Shown: piece after piece, positions 3,394-10,277 of the stretch
How the letters are laid out: each line of letters begins with the position of its first letter
How positions within the stretch are numbered: position 1 is the stretch's first letter
The notes under the pieces: model-generated
Database searches by the model: none
Told to the model about the DNA's origin: nothing
Seen by the model: the letters and a program-made list of their open reading frames with translations, nothing else
Position numbers and translations under genes: made by a program
Assembly (NCBI GenBank): GCA_903838095.1
Contig: CAILXE010000139.1
Location: 1 to 10,447, forward strand
DNA length: 10,447 nt
Source: an uncultured Chlorobiaceae bacterium
GTDB taxonomy: Bacteria > Bacteroidota > Chlorobiia > Chlorobiales > Chlorobiaceae
Reading direction: 5' to 3'

Positions 3394-3621
3394 ATGTCAA
3401 ACGGAACAAGCAACGACGTATCAGGCGCCATCAACAACCTGATTGATACACTTGGCAAACTTGCTCAGCAGCAGGTTGAATTTCTGAACAGCGGTATCAA
3501 AACTGCAGCTCAGCTTGCCGAGCCTCTTGGAAAAACAGCTACCGAGCTTGTGGGCAACGTTATCAACACCCTCAACCAGGTGTTGCAGAACATCTCTGCT
3601 GCTTTAGCTCCTAAAAAGTAA
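3394..3621 (+). CDS. csmB: Chlorosome envelope protein B
   Basis: A 75-residue protein matching the CsmB/CsmF family of chlorosome envelope proteins: it starts MSNGT, has the central AEPLGKTATELVGN (42-55) and ends in APKK. CsmB lies in the lipid monolayer around the bacteriochlorophyll aggregates of green sulfur bacteria and shapes the antenna organelle. Two amphipathic helices are visible (about 12-39 and 49-70), and they resemble each other: INNLIDTLGKLAQ versus VINTLNQVLQNIS. There are no cysteines, aromatics are nearly absent and no signal peptide is visible, as expected. The start lacks a Shine-Dalgarno sequence and sits in an A-rich stretch, odd for a presumably abundant protein. A strong terminator follows 18 bases after the stop, so it is probably monocistronic. 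CsmF is the alternative within the same family. Confidence 0.85.
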   Translation: MSNGTSNDVSGAINNLIDTLGKLAQQQVEFLNSGIKTAAQLAEPLGKTATELVGNVINTLNQVLQNISAALAPKK

Positions 3622-3639: not shown

Positions 3640-3680
3640 AAAGCACCTTATACCTTTGCTGTATGAGGTGCTTTTTTTTT
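3640..3680 (+). terminator. Intrinsic terminator of csmB
   Basis: A 14-bp stem, 3640-3653 with 3661-3674 (AAAGCACCTTATAC against GTATGAGGTGCTTT, one T-G wobble), closes a 7-base loop and runs into a tract of T (3672-3680). This is a textbook Rho-independent terminator and separates csmB from the downstream kinase operon. Confidence 0.92.
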
Positions 3681-3699: not shown

Positions 3700-4755
3700 A
3701 TGAGATGCGGTTTTGCGTTCATCAGAATGAGACCGACAGAAAACTCTCCCATGGTCATCCATAATAATATTACCGCACTGTATACCTCCTCTTGCGGCGC
3801 CCCTCATTCGATGACAAAAATACAGGGTGACGCTTCAAGTCGTCAGTATTTCAGGGTTAATGGTGAGCACACGTCCTGTATTGCCTGTTATGACCCTGCA
3901 TTTGAAGCATCAACCGCAGGCAATTACCCGTTTCTTGTTGTGCACGAACTGTTATCACGTCATGCCATTCCCGTTCCGGCAGTTCTGGCTCTTGATACTC
4001 ATCATGGAATCCTGCTTCTTGAAGATTGCGGGGATCTGCTGCTGCAGAACATTTTCGGGTCGCCAGCAGAAGAGACCGTTCCTGAACTGTATCGTAAGAT
4101 CATTGATATCCTGATTCGCCTTCAGGCTATTGGCGGCAACAAGAACGACCTGCCATTCTGCAACAGCTTCGATCAGGAAAAACTCATGTTTGAGTTTGAT
4201 TTTTTTATTGAACATGGTTTACTCGACTACTTTGCGCCTCATTTTAACCAGCATTCGATCAGCAGATTACGTCGTGAATTTGAAGCCATAGCGGCGCTTC
4301 TGGTAACACCACGCCACTTTGTTCTTAACCACAGAGATTTTCACAGCCGCAATATTCTTGTTTACCATGACAAGCCGGTGATCATCGACTTTCAGGATGC
4401 ACGTATGGGCTTGCCACAATATGATGCGGTATCATTGATAAAAGACTCTTATGTCAAGCTTGATCCCGTTGTGACCGAAGAGTTGAAGGCATATCACTAT
4501 AATGCTCTGCGCAGTCACGAACTGAGTACCATGAGTTTTGACGAATACCTCTTCTATTTTGATATGATGGCTTTTCAGCGCAATATCAAGGCAATAGGTA
4601 CCTTCTGTTACCAAACCAGAGTAAAAAAGAACAACGCTTTCGAACATTCAATTGCGCCAACGCTGGCCTATCTCCCTGATTATATTGAAGCAAGAAACGA
4701 ATTGAAGGGAGCTGGAGAGATTCTTCGGCCTCTGTTGGAGAGAGCCTCATCATGA
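3700..4755 (+). CDS. amgK: AmgK-type sugar kinase (N-acetylmuramate / N-acetylglucosamine 1-kinase), aminoglycoside phosphotransferase fold
   Basis: A phosphotransferase of about 350 residues. Counting from the ATG at 3700, GDASSRQYFRV (43-53) matches the nucleotide-loop motif of AmgK, LLLEDCGD (105-112) the hinge, HRDFHSRN (211-218) the catalytic loop and IDFQDARMGLPQYD (229-242) the metal-binding segment followed by the characteristic VSLIKDSY. The later FQRNIKAIG is also AmgK-like. In Pseudomonas, AmgK phosphorylates MurNAc or GlcNAc at the anomeric carbon with ATP in the peptidoglycan-recycling shortcut. The next gene, overlapping by ATGA (4752-4755), is a MurU-type nucleotidyltransferase, the known partner, which strongly supports the call. 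The start is uncertain: a TTG at 3679 falls inside the csmB terminator, and ATGs at 3700, 3727 and 3751 are all possible and all lack a Shine-Dalgarno sequence. Confidence 0.8.
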   Translation: MRCGFAFIRMRPTENSPMVIHNNITALYTSSCGAPHSMTKIQGDASSRQYFRVNGEHTSCIACYDPAFEASTAGNYPFLVVHELLSRHAIPVPAVLALDTHHGILLLEDCGDLLLQNIFGSPAEETVPELYRKIIDILIRLQAIGGNKNDLPFCNSFDQEKLMFEFDFFIEHGLLDYFAPHFNQHSISRLRREFEAIAALLVTPRHFVLNHRDFHSRNILVYHDKPVIIDFQDARMGLPQYDAVSLIKDSYVKLDPVVTEELKAYHYNALRSHELSTMSFDEYLFYFDMMAFQRNIKAIGTFCYQTRVKKNNAFEHSIAPTLAYLPDYIEARNELKGAGEILRPLLERASS

Positions 4756-5711
4756 AAGCATTTATCCTTGCCGCAGGGCTTGGTACCCGTCTTCACCCCC
4801 TGACCAATCACATTCCAAAACCGCTGATTCCTGTTCTCAATATCCCCGCCCTTTTCTACACCATTGTGCAGTTGAAGCAGGCCGGAATCAGCGAAATTGT
4901 CTGTAACATCCACCATCACGCAGGGATGGTCAGAGACGTAATGGCATCACACGTTTTTCCCGGGATGCATATCATTTTTTCAGAAGAGCCAGTCATTCTC
5001 GGCACAGGCGGAGGATTAAAAAAATGTGAAAAGCTGCTTGGTGATAACGATTTTATTCTGGTCAACAGCGATATAATTGCCGATATTGATTTCAGGGCGT
5101 TGATGCTTCATCATCAACAATCTGGTTTTCCCGGGACGCTGACTCTTTTTGAAACTCCGGCGGCTCAAACAATCGGGTTTGTCGGGGTCGAAAACGCTCT
5201 GGTCAAAGACTTCAGAAACCAGCGGCATACGGGACTTGTATCATCGCTCATCTATACAGGGACATCCGTTCTCAGTCCCCAAATTTTCCGTTTTTTGAAA
5301 ACAGAGTATTCGAGTATTGTCGATACCGGATTTACAGGACTTATTGATAACGGCGGACTTGGCTTCTACCAGCATAAAGGATTATGGATGGATATTGGCA
5401 CCATGCAGAGCTACTGGCAGGCCAACCTGGATACCGAAGCTCTTCTCCGAAAACTCTCCACACGAATGAGTTTTGCAACCGAAATGCTGCCTCACGCCAT
5501 TTCACCGGATGCGTTCATCAGTCCCGAGGCCAGGGTCTCCGGCTCTGTCATCGGAAAAGATTGCCATATTGGAGCACACTGCAGCATCAGCAATTCAGTC
5601 CTGCTCCCTGGAGTTAAGGTTAAACCGGGATCATCCATTATCAATGCTGTTGTCGATCCGTACAGCATAACCATAATAGAAGAACCGAAACAAGAGAGAG
5701 GATACTTATGA
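4752..5711 (+). CDS. murU: MurU-type nucleotidyltransferase (N-acetylmuramate-1-phosphate uridylyltransferase-like) with C-terminal left-handed beta-helix
   Basis: A 319-residue sugar-1-phosphate nucleotidyltransferase. LAAGLGTRL (6-14) with IPKPLIP (21-27) is the nucleotide-binding signature, LGTGGGLK (83-90) binds the base/sugar, VNSD (104-107) holds the metal-binding aspartate, and WMDIGT (212-217) closes the domain. IYTGTSVLSPQIF (167-179) also resembles MurU. MurU makes UDP-MurNAc from MurNAc-1-phosphate and UTP, letting cells bypass MurA and MurB. Unlike the roughly 220-residue Pseudomonas enzyme, this protein continues with an imperfect hexapeptide-repeat beta-helix (about 250-308: FISPEA, GSVIGKD, CHIGAH, SVLLPG), as in GlmU or GDP-mannose pyrophosphorylase-like enzymes. 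GAGAGAG at 4738-4744 may be the ribosome-binding site. ATGA overlaps join it to the kinase upstream and the NamZ-like gene downstream. Heptose- or mannose-1-phosphate transferases are alternatives. Confidence 0.75.
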   Translation: MKAFILAAGLGTRLHPLTNHIPKPLIPVLNIPALFYTIVQLKQAGISEIVCNIHHHAGMVRDVMASHVFPGMHIIFSEEPVILGTGGGLKKCEKLLGDNDFILVNSDIIADIDFRALMLHHQQSGFPGTLTLFETPAAQTIGFVGVENALVKDFRNQRHTGLVSSLIYTGTSVLSPQIFRFLKTEYSSIVDTGFTGLIDNGGLGFYQHKGLWMDIGTMQSYWQANLDTEALLRKLSTRMSFATEMLPHAISPDAFISPEARVSGSVIGKDCHIGAHCSISNSVLLPGVKVKPGSSIINAVVDPYSITIIEEPKQERGYL

Positions 5712-6874
5712 CAGCAACCGGGCTCGACATACTGCTCAGAAATACAGAGTGCCTGCACAACAGAAGCATCGGACTGATTGTCAACCAGACTTCCCTTACT
5801 CATGACCTGAGATATTCCTGGAATGTGCTGAAAGAGAAGGGGGTACACATCAAAAGAATATTTTCCCCTGAACATGGACTTTTTGCGACGGAGCAGGATC
5901 AGATTGCCGTCAGTTACCAGCCTGAGCTGGGCTGTGAGGTGGTCAGCCTCTATGGAGACTCTGCTGAAACGCTGATTCCAGACACCGCGCTGCTTGACAA
6001 CATCGACCTTATCCTCTTTGACATTCAGGATGTCGGCTCCCGTTACTACACCTATATCAATACGCTGGCGCTGTTTATGGAGGCGGTTTCAGGCAGGGAT
6101 ATCGAGATCAGGGTGCTTGACCGACCGAACCCGCTCGGTGGTGAAATTGTTGAGGGGCCAGCGCTCGAACCGGAATTCGGTTCATTTGTTGGTGTCTTGC
6201 CCGTACCAGTCCGCCACGGTATGACTGTCGGTGAACTTGCACTGTATTATCGTGAGGTCAAGAAGCTTGATGTGAACCTCAGTGTCGTTACCATGGAAGG
6301 GTGGCGCCGCTCCATGCTGTTCCCGGAAACGGGCCTTCCCTGGATTCCTCCATCCCCGAACATGCCCACATTTGCTACCGCCGAAGTTTACCCCGGCATG
6401 TGCCTCTTTGAGGGGCTTAACGTTTCAGAAGGAAGAGGATCGACCACTCCATTCCAGCTTTCGGGCGCTCCGTTTGTTCATCCGTTTGAGCTTGCTGAAC
6501 GCTGTGCTGCTTATGGGCTTGAGGGCGTCCTGTTTCGACCAGTATGGTTCAAGCCAACATTTCACAAGTTCAGCGGCGAGGTTATTGGGGGCATCTGGCA
6601 GCAGGTGACAGACCATACACGTTATCGCTCGTTTGCCACAGGGGTTGCCATGACCGCAGCACTCAATGAGCTTTATCCCGGAAAGGTGCAGTTTCTCTCC
6701 GGAGTGTATGAATTCAACGATACCATTCCGGCATTTGACCTTCTTGCCGGAAACAGCCATATCCGCTCTGCCATAGAGAATGGCTGCGATGTTGCAACCA
6801 TCCTCTCTTCATGGCAAAAAGAGGAATCTGCTTTTTCGGCCATGAAGCCTGAGTTCCATCTGTACATGTCATAA
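5708..6874 (+). CDS. namZ: DUF1343 protein, NamZ-type exo-beta-N-acetylmuramidase, no signal peptide
   Basis: A 388-residue member of the DUF1343/YbbC family. Family blocks appear in order: GLIVNQTS (22-29), FSPEHGLF (52-59), FDIQDVGSRYYTYI (104-117), LDRPNPLGG (137-145), RHGMTVGELA (169-178), WIPPSPNMPT (212-221) and EGLNVSEGRGSTTPF (235-249). Members studied in Bacillus (NamZ) and Tannerella remove MurNAc from the non-reducing end of peptidoglycan fragments. Those proteins are exported. This one starts directly at the mature domain (MTATGLDILLRNTEC) with no basic-hydrophobic leader, so it should be cytoplasmic. GAGAGAGG at 5694-5701 is a good ribosome-binding site, and the start overlaps the murU-like stop by 4 bases. 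Context (kinase, uridylyltransferase, symporter) fits MurNAc salvage. Confidence 0.85.
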   Translation: MTATGLDILLRNTECLHNRSIGLIVNQTSLTHDLRYSWNVLKEKGVHIKRIFSPEHGLFATEQDQIAVSYQPELGCEVVSLYGDSAETLIPDTALLDNIDLILFDIQDVGSRYYTYINTLALFMEAVSGRDIEIRVLDRPNPLGGEIVEGPALEPEFGSFVGVLPVPVRHGMTVGELALYYREVKKLDVNLSVVTMEGWRRSMLFPETGLPWIPPSPNMPTFATAEVYPGMCLFEGLNVSEGRGSTTPFQLSGAPFVHPFELAERCAAYGLEGVLFRPVWFKPTFHKFSGEVIGGIWQQVTDHTRYRSFATGVAMTAALNELYPGKVQFLSGVYEFNDTIPAFDLLAGNSHIRSAIENGCDVATILSSWQKEESAFSAMKPEFHLYMS

Positions 6875-6887
6875 ATTATTCGCCTTT

Positions 6888-8306
6888 ATGCAGCCCATCG
6901 ATCTTGCCATCATTATTCTTTTTCTGGTTGGAAACACTCTTTTCGGCCTCTGGCATGGAAAAAGCAACAAAAGCAGCCACGACTATTTTCTCGGCAATCA
7001 CAATCTGCCCTGGATCGCATCGATGCTCTCGATCGTTGCCTCAGAAACATCCGTACTGACATTTGTCAGTGTTCCCGGTCTTGCTTACAGGGGCGACTGG
7101 AGTTTCCTGCAACTTGCCATGGGTTACATTATCGGCAGAATTCTGGTGAGCGCCATTCTTCTGCCGATGTACTTCAAGCAAGGCGTCAGCTCGATTTATG
7201 AGATTATCGGGCTCCGATTTGGGCAAGGAATGCAGAAAGTAGCTGCTGTAGTTTTTCTTGTCACCCGGACACTTGGCGATGCTATCCGCTTTCTTGCTGC
7301 GGGCGTTGTGGTGCAGGTGGTCACCGGATGGTCGCTCCCACTCTCTGTGATGATTATCGGCGCCGTCACCCTTGTCTATACGCTGTCAGGTGGAATCAAG
7401 GCGGTTGTCTGGCTCGAAAGTTTCCAGTTCAGCCTTTACCTTCTCGGCGGAGTCCTCTCGGTAGTTTTTCTTCTGAACAGCATTGATCAGGAAGTTCCTG
7501 CACTCTTGACATCGCTTTTAAACGCAGGCAAACTGAATATTATCAATACAGATCCCCATTTTTTAACCAAGCCATTAACCTTTTTCAGCGCCTTTATCGG
7601 TGGCATCCTGCTTTCACTCTCTTCCCACGGTGTTGATTACATGATGGTGCAGCGGGTGCTCGGCTGCAAAGATCTGCGGTCGGCAAGAAAGGCGATGATT
7701 GGCAGCGGTTTTTTTGTCTTTTTCCAGTTTTCTGTCTTTCTGCTTGCAGGCTCACTGATCTCCGTGTTCATGCATGGCGCACCAATGGAAAAAGACCGGG
7801 AATTTGCCTTTTTTATCGTCCACTACCTTCCTGCTGGTCTGAAAGGCCTGCTGATTGCAGGCGTCCTGTCAGCCGCGATGTCAACCCACAGCTCGGCAAT
7901 CAATTCACTTGCCTCTTCAACGGTCAACGATATTCTTGGAGGAAACTCGTCGCTCGGAAAGTCAAGGCTGATCAGCTTGTTCTGGGCTGTTCTGCTGATT
8001 ATTATTGCACTCATGTTTGATGCCGGCAGCAATGCGATTGTCATGGTTGGTCTTGAAATCGCCTCCTTCACCTATGGCGGTCTGCTGGGGCTCTTTCTGC
8101 TTTCCAAAAGCAAACGCAATTTTCACTGGATAAGTCTCGCCACCGGCCTCATCGCAAGCATGGCTATTGTTTTTGTGCTGAAACACTTTGGTCTGGCATG
8201 GACCTGGTATATACTCGTGTCAGTGACGCTTAATATCATTGTCGCGTTCATGACGGATATTATCATCAAGACCTTGAGCTCTGAACAGAAAAACCCTGGT
8301 CAGTGA
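6888..8306 (+). CDS. Sodium:solute symporter (SSS family), candidate amino-sugar or muropeptide-sugar importer
   Basis: A 472-residue polytopic membrane protein with roughly 12-13 hydrophobic helices. Family landmarks are the short first helix followed by HDYFLGNHNLPW (31-42), the SETSVLTFVSVPGLAY loop (52-67), YTLSGGIKAVVWLE (164-177) and LSAAMSTHSSAINS (327-340), the Na2-site region of SSS carriers. Such proteins couple uptake of a small solute to sodium. It starts 13 bases after the NamZ-like stop, so it is the last gene of the kinase-nucleotidyltransferase-NamZ operon. This suggests uptake of MurNAc or a MurNAc-GlcNAc sugar, but SSS substrates cannot be read from sequence (sugars, sialic acid, pantothenate and proline are all known). 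No Shine-Dalgarno is evident before the ATG. The stop codon lies in a hairpin shared with the convergent gene. Confidence 0.85.
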   Translation: MQPIDLAIIILFLVGNTLFGLWHGKSNKSSHDYFLGNHNLPWIASMLSIVASETSVLTFVSVPGLAYRGDWSFLQLAMGYIIGRILVSAILLPMYFKQGVSSIYEIIGLRFGQGMQKVAAVVFLVTRTLGDAIRFLAAGVVVQVVTGWSLPLSVMIIGAVTLVYTLSGGIKAVVWLESFQFSLYLLGGVLSVVFLLNSIDQEVPALLTSLLNAGKLNIINTDPHFLTKPLTFFSAFIGGILLSLSSHGVDYMMVQRVLGCKDLRSARKAMIGSGFFVFFQFSVFLLAGSLISVFMHGAPMEKDREFAFFIVHYLPAGLKGLLIAGVLSAAMSTHSSAINSLASSTVNDILGGNSSLGKSRLISLFWAVLLIIIALMFDAGSNAIVMVGLEIASFTYGGLLGLFLLSKSKRNFHWISLATGLIASMAIVFVLKHFGLAWTWYILVSVTLNIIVAFMTDIIIKTLSSEQKNPGQ

Positions 8307-9191: not shown

Positions 9192-10277
9192 ATGAAACAA
9201 AAATGGTGTCTGGCGAAAATTTTTGCGGCCGGAATAGCGCTTTCAATGTACCAAACCGCATTTGCATACGACCAGGAGACTCTGAACTTGCTGAAACAGA
9301 ATATCACTGAATGGAATACCCGGTGCCTTGCAACTCCTCGACATGCTGCTGACCTTTCCAGAGCACCACTTGAAAATGCCGACCTCTCTTCGGCTTTTCT
9401 TGTCAAGGCAAATCTCAGGGGGGCATTTATGAAAGGCGCCAGGCTTATCAAAGCAAACATGCAGGGCGCGAACCTCAGATGGAGCATGCTGGAAAACGCA
9501 GACTTAACTGGAGCCAACATGACCAAGGCCAATCTTTTTGAGGCAAATCTTGAAGGCGCAAATCTTGATGGGGCTAACCTTAAAGGCACAATATCACTTG
9601 AGCTGGCAAATCTTGCCGGTGCCATCCTGTCGAACAACACCATACTTCCTTCCGGTGAGCGAGCTTCTTTGCAATGGAGCAGAATGCACAACGCTCAATT
9701 TGTGACTGAAACTGAACTCCCCTTGCCTGCCAGCACCCCTTCACCATCTGTCGAGCGTTCATCGCACTCCCTTACAACGGTCTCTCCTGAGACCCGCATT
9801 GCCCAAAAAACAGAACCCAATAAAAGCTTAATACCACAGGAACCTCTTTCCAATGCAGATCTGGAGACTGATGCGCCGGAACACGCTGACATGGAAAATG
9901 CAAACCTGGTCAATGCCGATTTTCACAGGGCAGATCTGGGCTCAGCAAAAATGCATGGCGCCAATCTACAGGGTGCTAATCTGGACAGAGCATTTCTCAA
10001 AGATGCCGATCTCAGCAAAAGCAACCTTTCGAAAGCAATTCTTTTCGGAGCAAACCTGAACGGAGCAAACCTGAGTGGAGCAAACCTTGAGGGAGCGTCT
10101 CTGTTTGATGCCAATCTGGAAGGAGCAAAGCTGGAAGGCGCAAACCTGAAAGACGCAAATATCATTGATGCTAATTTCAACAACGCAACACTGTCAGAGC
10201 TGACAATTTTGCCGTCGGGCCAGCATGCAACGGCAAAATGGGCCCTCATGAAACAGGCGATATTTGCAAAACCTTAA
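9192..10277 (+). CDS. Exported pentapeptide-repeat protein with two duplicated repeat domains
   Basis: A 361-residue protein. Residues 1-25 form a signal peptide (MKQK, hydrophobic core, cleavage after AFA at 25), so the product should be exported to the periplasm. Two blocks of pentapeptide repeats, pattern A(N/D)Lxx, follow at about 53-145 and 219-338; they should fold as right-handed quadrilateral beta-helices. Each block ends in the same tail: TILPSGERASLQWSRM (150-165) and TILPSGQHATAKWALM (338-353). The whole domain therefore looks duplicated. A Ser/Thr/Pro-rich linker (171-218) joins the copies. Function is unknown; cytoplasmic relatives can mimic DNA, which an exported protein would not do. 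The start has no Shine-Dalgarno sequence but is fixed by the signal peptide. The stop overlaps that of the convergent gene (10274-10277). Confidence 0.85.
   Translation: MKQKWCLAKIFAAGIALSMYQTAFAYDQETLNLLKQNITEWNTRCLATPRHAADLSRAPLENADLSSAFLVKANLRGAFMKGARLIKANMQGANLRWSMLENADLTGANMTKANLFEANLEGANLDGANLKGTISLELANLAGAILSNNTILPSGERASLQWSRMHNAQFVTETELPLPASTPSPSVERSSHSLTTVSPETRIAQKTEPNKSLIPQEPLSNADLETDAPEHADMENANLVNADFHRADLGSAKMHGANLQGANLDRAFLKDADLSKSNLSKAILFGANLNGANLSGANLEGASLFDANLEGAKLEGANLKDANIIDANFNNATLSELTILPSGQHATAKWALMKQAIFAKP

Follow-up and report, generated by a model that had tools for sequence, protein, structure and literature searches.

What do four genes that run almost without interruption along a contig of an uncultured Chlorobiaceae bacterium do together? 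The stretch analyzed here (the window, 10,447 nucleotides) is the whole of contig C139 (GenBank CAILXE010000139.1), whose source genome is 82.5% complete, and a preliminary description of it had read positions 3700 to 8306 as a complete operon for the salvage of the peptidoglycan sugar N-acetylmuramic acid (MurNAc). Our analysis makes it likely that the four genes indeed form a compact MurNAc salvage operon, in which the disaccharide of MurNAc and N-acetylglucosamine (MurNAc-GlcNAc) is the likelier imported form given the cytoplasmic location predicted for its NamZ enzyme. The genes are as follows.

3751..4755, + strand: amgK-like anomeric amino-sugar kinase with an APH fold, 334 amino acids (motifs HRDFHSRNI and IDFQDAR)
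4752..5711, + strand: murU-like sugar-1-phosphate nucleotidyltransferase with a C-terminal left-handed beta-helix, 319 amino acids (ILGTGGGLKKC loop; Pfam, NCBIfam and structure matches)
5708..6874, + strand: namZ, exo-beta-N-acetylmuramidase without a signal peptide, cytoplasmic by prediction (Pfam, 4k05 match, N-terminus survey, tree)
6888..8306, + strand: sodium:solute symporter (SSF) that probably imports MurNAc or MurNAc-GlcNAc (Pfam, gene order, 5nv9 match, R127/R134)

ATGA overlaps join the kinase gene to that of the nucleotidyltransferase (4752-4755) and the latter to namZ (5708-5711), a gap of 13 bases separates namZ from the symporter gene, and all Pfam domains score above cut-off (APH 87.6 bits, NTP_transferase 93.3, NamZ_N 254.7, NamZ_C 162.6, and SSF 92.4 against a cut-off of 22.8). 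The overlaps, the gap and the ends of the block thus agree with the preliminary description, with the exception of the kinase start: several in-frame starts are available, 3700 among them, and because the orthologues begin at ATG 3751 the amgK start is most likely there.

In the route that we propose, the symporter would import MurNAc or, likelier, MurNAc-GlcNAc, NamZ would cleave the disaccharide in the cytoplasm, AmgK would phosphorylate MurNAc at C1, and MurU would join MurNAc-1-phosphate to uridine triphosphate (UTP) to give uridine diphosphate-MurNAc (UDP-MurNAc), which could enter wall synthesis at MurC. Trimming of glycan ends on the outer side of the membrane would fall to a second NamZ, which is exported, and to two exported GH3 proteins of the NagZ type. 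The genes for these steps are observed; each substrate, the direction of transport and the flux would be those suggested by the protein families. The operon is probably a variant of the known AmgK-MurU shunt, distinguished by a cytoplasmic NamZ and laterally spread.

For the first two proteins of the window, the best-scoring NCBIfam families are AmgK and MurU, respectively. AmgK models match 15/15 kinases, with the best non-AmgK model no better than 2.5e-5, and MurU models match 16/16 nucleotidyltransferases. The kinase carries the HxDxxxxN and DF motifs of the APH fold. The sugar loop of the nucleotidyltransferase reads TGGG, as in the solved MurU 4y7t, in all 16 aligned sequences and in at least 98% of 54, in contrast to the GTAGPL loop of four solved guanosine diphosphate-mannose (GDP-mannose) pyrophosphorylase sequences. 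Its catalytic domain aligns with the MurU structures 4y7u, 4y7t and 4y7v at 31-32% identity (TMt 0.82-0.84), and among the 50 matches listed none exceeds solved MurU in identity. Of five MurU models, four were poor. MurU has reportedly been presented, in the title of a 2015 paper by Renner-Schneck, as a minimal single-domain enzyme; the window protein is not minimal in this sense, having an extra C-terminal beta-helix domain. Taken by family, MurNAc as the predicted substrate of the pair is well supported. A second NTP-transferase of the same genome, on contig C356, was considered as the real MurU and ruled out by its GTIGPL loop and by neighbors resembling surface-polysaccharide genes; four further weak matches were counted in this genome.

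The third protein retains the family residues of NamZ, scores above cut-off for both domains (PF07075 and PF20732) and matches 4k05 at E 1.8e-58. Forty-two residues, the PEHG motif included, are at least 95% conserved across 54 operon NamZ proteins and 93% conserved across 64 others. The operon copies differ at the N-terminus: the hydrophobic start expected of an exported protein, found in most NamZ examined, occurs above the chosen threshold in 0/65 cassette-type copies (54 from Chlorobiaceae and 11 from spirochaete loci, each above 430 bits) versus at least 43 of 63 others, a lower bound because the N-terminal anchor failed for part of 20 sub-threshold rows, and with one of the 63 (L313) being an incomplete cassette NamZ. 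A methionine lies within five residues of the NamZ core in 46 of the 65 cassette-type copies, while 16 have none in the scanned stretch and three have one 14 or 33 residues off; spirochaete N-termini in an earlier survey were read by eye. Prediction places the operon NamZ in the cytoplasm. This would change the substrate that the symporter is expected to import and, because cleavage would occur inside the cell, favors the disaccharide. In a tree of 49 NamZ (24 cassette-type and 25 others), the cassette copies of Chlorobiaceae and spirochaetes form one group (100/99), within which the Chlorobiaceae nest by spirochaete L291 (93/88, not starred). The NamZ that Chlorobiaceae export instead joins those of the sister families (100/99). 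Because of these separate groupings, the operon NamZ looks acquired and the exported one inherited. Among 40 stretches of about 13 kb around NamZ from other Bacteroidota, none held AmgK or MurU and one held an SSF gene; in smaller stretches from other relatives, an SSF gene lies beside namZ at L112, L116, L121 (facing) and L125 (tandem).

The substrate of the symporter, probably MurNAc or MurNAc-GlcNAc to judge from family and gene order, is the least certain part of the pathway. The protein matches 5nv9 at E 1.3e-25, and its residues R127 and R134 are retained in 10 aligned cassette-type symporters from both Chlorobiaceae and spirochaetes, three shorter frames not spanning these columns. The two residues are not specific to the cassette because two Bacteroidota SSF proteins encoded near namZ carry R/R and K/R at the same positions. 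SiaT R135, which we take to be the carboxylate-binding arginine, has no equivalent at the same column in the alignment of the window symporter.

The preliminary description had proposed searching for murQ, nagZ and ampG, and we took an inventory of recycling genes by cut-off searches in 61 Chlorobiaceae and 14 control genomes; the window's own genome is incomplete, and absences rest on the family genomes. MurQ was above cut-off in 0/61 (controls 5/14), with partial SIS-domain matches in 60 genomes that we read, by frame length, as GlmS, KpsF and GmhA. NamZ is linked to the anabolic side, as had been suggested, because MurQ is above cut-off in none of these genomes. AnmK was likewise found in 0/61 (controls 5/14); a NamZ that releases reducing MurNAc would render both AnmK and MupP unnecessary. 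GH3 proteins were above cut-off in all 61, with two matches in 58 (controls 10/14), and the two GH3 proteins that were read both have signal-like N-termini. AmpG was above cut-off in 0/61, 14 genomes giving weak, partial matches that reach no more than 24.3 bits against a cut-off of 350, a strict value passed by only 2/14 control genomes, which tempers this absence. The salvage set earlier called complete thus stands as far as the four genes go, but its parts list differs, AnmK and AmpG being absent. MurA was above cut-off in 59/61 (controls 10/14), the misses being G251, which is 77% complete, and G252, which has a partial match; because of this, any fosfomycin tolerance conferred by the shunt would be partial at most.

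Gene-order conservation across Chlorobi, a check that had also been suggested, holds in the Chlorobiaceae. Chance can be set aside: a MurU orthologue is present in 54/55 genomes of the family, and the order csmB-amgK-murU-namZ-ssf recurs in 51 of 54 loci (from 53 genomes), the other three reaching sequence ends; the 51 include L037, where a contig end leaves only the start of ssf. Of the best 80 of 183 MurU relatives in a named collection, 78 come from green sulfur bacteria, and 70 of these 78 show all five genes, seven are interrupted by contig ends and one (L204) differs, although these records overlap the 54-locus set and are not an independent count. Named carriers include Chlorobium ferrooxidans, Chlorobium phaeovibrioides and Chlorobaculum thiosulfatiphilum, and the nearest record among those listed is Chlorobium sp. 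L227-S-6D, with 94% identity over the nucleotidyltransferase. The one family genome without a MurU orthologue, G056, is a 99%-complete genome of the Chlorobium group, perhaps a natural loss, with a single, signal-bearing NamZ (at L120). L204, from a metagenome-assembled genome of Chlorobium chlorochromatii, has a gene for 493 amino acids, DUF262-like by eye, at the expected position of namZ (9364-10845), and its murU has a longer, divergent tail.

Two further features lie ahead of the operon.

3394..3621, + strand: chlorosome envelope protein gene, which we take to be csmB, a conserved neighbor outside the operon (open frame; neighborhood)
3640..3674, + strand: terminator-like hairpin with a T-run between csmB and amgK (window scan; repeated in 52/52 loci)

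A hairpin folding under -8 kcal and followed by at least five T lies between csmB and amgK in 52/52 loci tested. A scan of the window for promoter- and terminator-like signals was overall hardly above shuffled sequence. Because the hairpin and T-run separate the two genes, we ruled out csmB as a member of the operon and treat it as a neighbor only, probably in a transcription unit of its own.

Outside the Chlorobiaceae, the AmgK profile matches 60/247 Spirochaetota genomes sampled, and 27 of the 39 AmgK-bearing stretches fetched score above 300 bits. In 21 of these 27 loci, ftsZ lies immediately upstream of the kinase within a murC-ftsQ-ftsA-ftsZ run, a linkage not seen in a scan of the 12 lower-scoring loci. 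The fetched stretch contains murU in 22 of the 27 (one 5.7 kb off) and namZ in 11. In G253, namZ is broken by a contig end and a namZ-ssf piece lies on another contig, making this a second, split case of all four genes. MurQ was above cut-off in 0/47 Spirochaetota, with or without the kinase, and offers no contrast. At two spirochaete loci, L294 and L290, an opposite-strand gene, an alpha/beta hydrolase by eye, lies between amgK and murU; at L294 this arrangement follows ftsZ, and the L290 stretch begins at amgK.

How the operon came to the Chlorobiaceae was addressed with trees of the kinase (15/54 Chlorobiaceae loci, 28/39 spirochaete loci and three Bacteroidota) and of MurU (15 Chlorobiaceae, 23 spirochaetes and three Bacteroidota). 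The Chlorobiaceae kinases (100/99) fall within a starred group with 19 spirochaetes, away from those of Bacteroidota; the MurU tree likewise sets them apart from Bacteroidota but does not resolve the nesting of Chlorobiaceae and Spirochaetota. G005 and G087, relatives at the level of the order, have a short MurU next to a longer kinase, which in G005 was shown to be a RapZ_C fusion; their namZ stands at a different locus, where a symporter gene faces it. Vertical inheritance of the operon is disfavored by this arrangement and by the kinase and NamZ trees, which nest Chlorobiaceae among Spirochaetota. The cassette has probably spread laterally, judging from a sampling of Chlorobiaceae, Spirochaetota and Bacteroidota that leaves any direction of transfer tentative. 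Tentatively, we can go further and suggest a separate form of recycling that works on MurNAc-GlcNAc with the symporter, cytoplasmic NamZ, AmgK and beta-helix MurU and without AmpG, AnmK or MurQ; it may have arisen outside the Chlorobiaceae, been wired behind ftsZ in part of the Spirochaetota and been passed laterally to the Chlorobiaceae ancestor.

Several observations weigh against MurNAc salvage as we read it. The kinase reaches 108.6 bits against an equivalog cut-off of 550 for AmgK (NF045759) and the nucleotidyltransferase 138.7 bits against 250 for MurU (NF045761), so the identities first proposed for them, borne out by top families and the TGGG loop, fall short of equivalog level; because the scores are far under these cut-offs, substrate specificity is inferred only. 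The lowest individual E-value of the whole set belongs to a model for mannose-1-phosphate guanylyltransferase, man1P_GTase_Rv (4.1e-43 versus 7.3e-41), and full-length matches put GDP-mannose pyrophosphorylases ahead of MurU, a ranking partly driven by the common beta-helix. All four genes stand in order in only 1/27 spirochaete loci (L291, with no ftsZ nearby), and five of the 27, including one that reaches a contig end, lack murU in the stretch. The operon also looks dispensable, because the nucleotidyltransferase is missing from G056, and neither namZ nor ssf is present at the L204 site. The missed cut-offs and the GDP-mannose pyrophosphorylase matches could mean that the kinase and nucleotidyltransferase activate another sugar (mannose, heptose or GlcNAc) for surface glycans, with NamZ and the symporter as unrelated neighbors. 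We consider this quite improbable, since the loop is TGGG and not GTAGP, kinase, nucleotidyltransferase and NamZ genes are adjacent in two bacterial groups, and 21/27 spirochaete kinase copies lie behind murC and ftsZ. Nor are low family scores unusual, because the AmgK and MurU of Caulobacter have 30.1% and 36.6% identity, respectively, to their P. aeruginosa counterparts, according to a passage of PMC13046382.

Two other explanations keep MurNAc as the substrate and differ in where it comes from. The symporter might take up free MurNAc released by the exported NamZ, leaving the cytoplasmic enzyme for minor or scavenged disaccharides, which is possible although we lean away from it. Two or three NamZ are present in 54/55 family genomes, and the five non-operon Chlorobiaceae copies that were read all bear signals. 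The best precedent for the symporter's role is the MurNAc transporter of Tannerella forsythia, MurT, described as a MurNAc importer and assigned in one passage of PMC5790795 to the sodium symporter superfamily, although the same source elsewhere describes it as a major-facilitator member; transport of a MurNAc disaccharide by an SSF protein appears to lack precedent within this analysis, a further point against our proposal. In favor of disaccharide import, the operon NamZ is without a signal in all 54 Chlorobiaceae loci, and spirochaete locus L287 pairs a cassette-type NamZ with a symporter and has no kinase in the fetched stretch, an argument countered by L289, where a symporter frame lies directly behind murU with no namZ there. 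That the operon mainly scavenges foreign peptidoglycan and not the cell's own wall seems unlikely to us: a dedicated importer, exported hydrolases and the T. forsythia precedent would fit such a role, but the csmB neighbors mark green sulfur bacteria, which are phototrophs, and the position of the spirochaete kinase genes behind murC and ftsZ suggests an own-wall cycle.

The salvage of MurNAc through AmgK and MurU is best set beside systems already described. Pseudomonas-type recycling is entered by AmpG. The shunt of Pseudomonas and Caulobacter shares with that of the Chlorobiaceae two activities, by family, that would lead from MurNAc to UDP-MurNAc past MurA and MurB while operating alongside MurA. 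Theirs is fed by anhydro-MurNAc via NagZ, AnmK and MupP (Caulobacter gene list in the part of PMC13046382 consulted), whereas in Chlorobiaceae a cytoplasmic NamZ and a symporter would replace the absent AnmK and AmpG, and MurU has its added beta-helix domain. P. putida AmgK and MurU placed in another bacterium permit the use of external MurNAc, as stated in a passage of PMC7012605. T. forsythia likewise has, within one organism, NamZ exo-muramidases (NamZ1 and NamZ2, named in a title in the reference list of PMC10465942) together with a MurNAc transporter of the sodium-symporter type, and an AmgK/MurU route has been proposed for it (a passage of PMC7670621). Unlike the Chlorobiaceae, which have MurA, lack MurQ and hold the four genes in one operon, it has no MurA or MurB, possesses MurK and MurQ, and carries the transporter gene alongside murK and murQ. 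Because the T. forsythia papers, in the parts consulted, already bring these elements together (PMC10465942, PMC5790795, PMC7670621), the tie of NamZ to the anabolic branch, pointed out in the preliminary description, is not new.

Bacteroidota kinases fused to a RapZ C-terminal domain (L088:6312-7841, - strand; L092:4214-5647, + strand; and L091) also adjoin a short MurU-like gene with a TGG loop; they share the APH kinase but differ in their 480-510 amino acid frame, RapZ C-terminal domain (tested for L088 and L092), separate clade and lack of an adjacent namZ in the stretches fetched, and are possibly sensor-kinase fusions in wall-sugar recycling. The NamZ of Bacillus subtilis is secreted, acts as an exo-enzyme together with NagZ and is tied to the MurQ pathway, whereas the operon NamZ of the same family is predicted to be cytoplasmic and is tied to AmgK and MurU. 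A review passage (PMC13204101) calls NagZ and NamZ extracellular in Gram-positives, and NamZ, AmgK and MurU are named together in a review passage. We found no paper joining Chlorobium with peptidoglycan recycling in the literature searched, and, as far as that search extends, the near-universal four-gene operon of sampled Chlorobiaceae, the cytoplasmic NamZ clade, the beta-helix MurU and the Spirochaetota link to ftsZ and murC are new. Together they outline, with a small gene set, a plausible wall-recycling route for green sulfur bacteria and some spirochaetes that lack the textbook genes, one that would place an exo-muramidase inside the cell and tie sugar salvage to a division gene cluster, where MurC would use recycled UDP-MurNAc. 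The route also predicts that how sensitive these groups are to MurA inhibitors depends partly on salvage.

Elsewhere in the window, positions 9192-10277 encode a pentapeptide-repeat protein with a signal-like N-terminus (by eye), a homologue of which lies downstream of the operon in 17/54 fetched Chlorobiaceae loci, whose stretch lengths vary. Positions 1631-2632 encode a protein of 333 amino acids with a hydrophobic N-terminus and without a Pfam or NCBIfam match; it has a homologue in 4/54 fetched loci, few of which extend that far.

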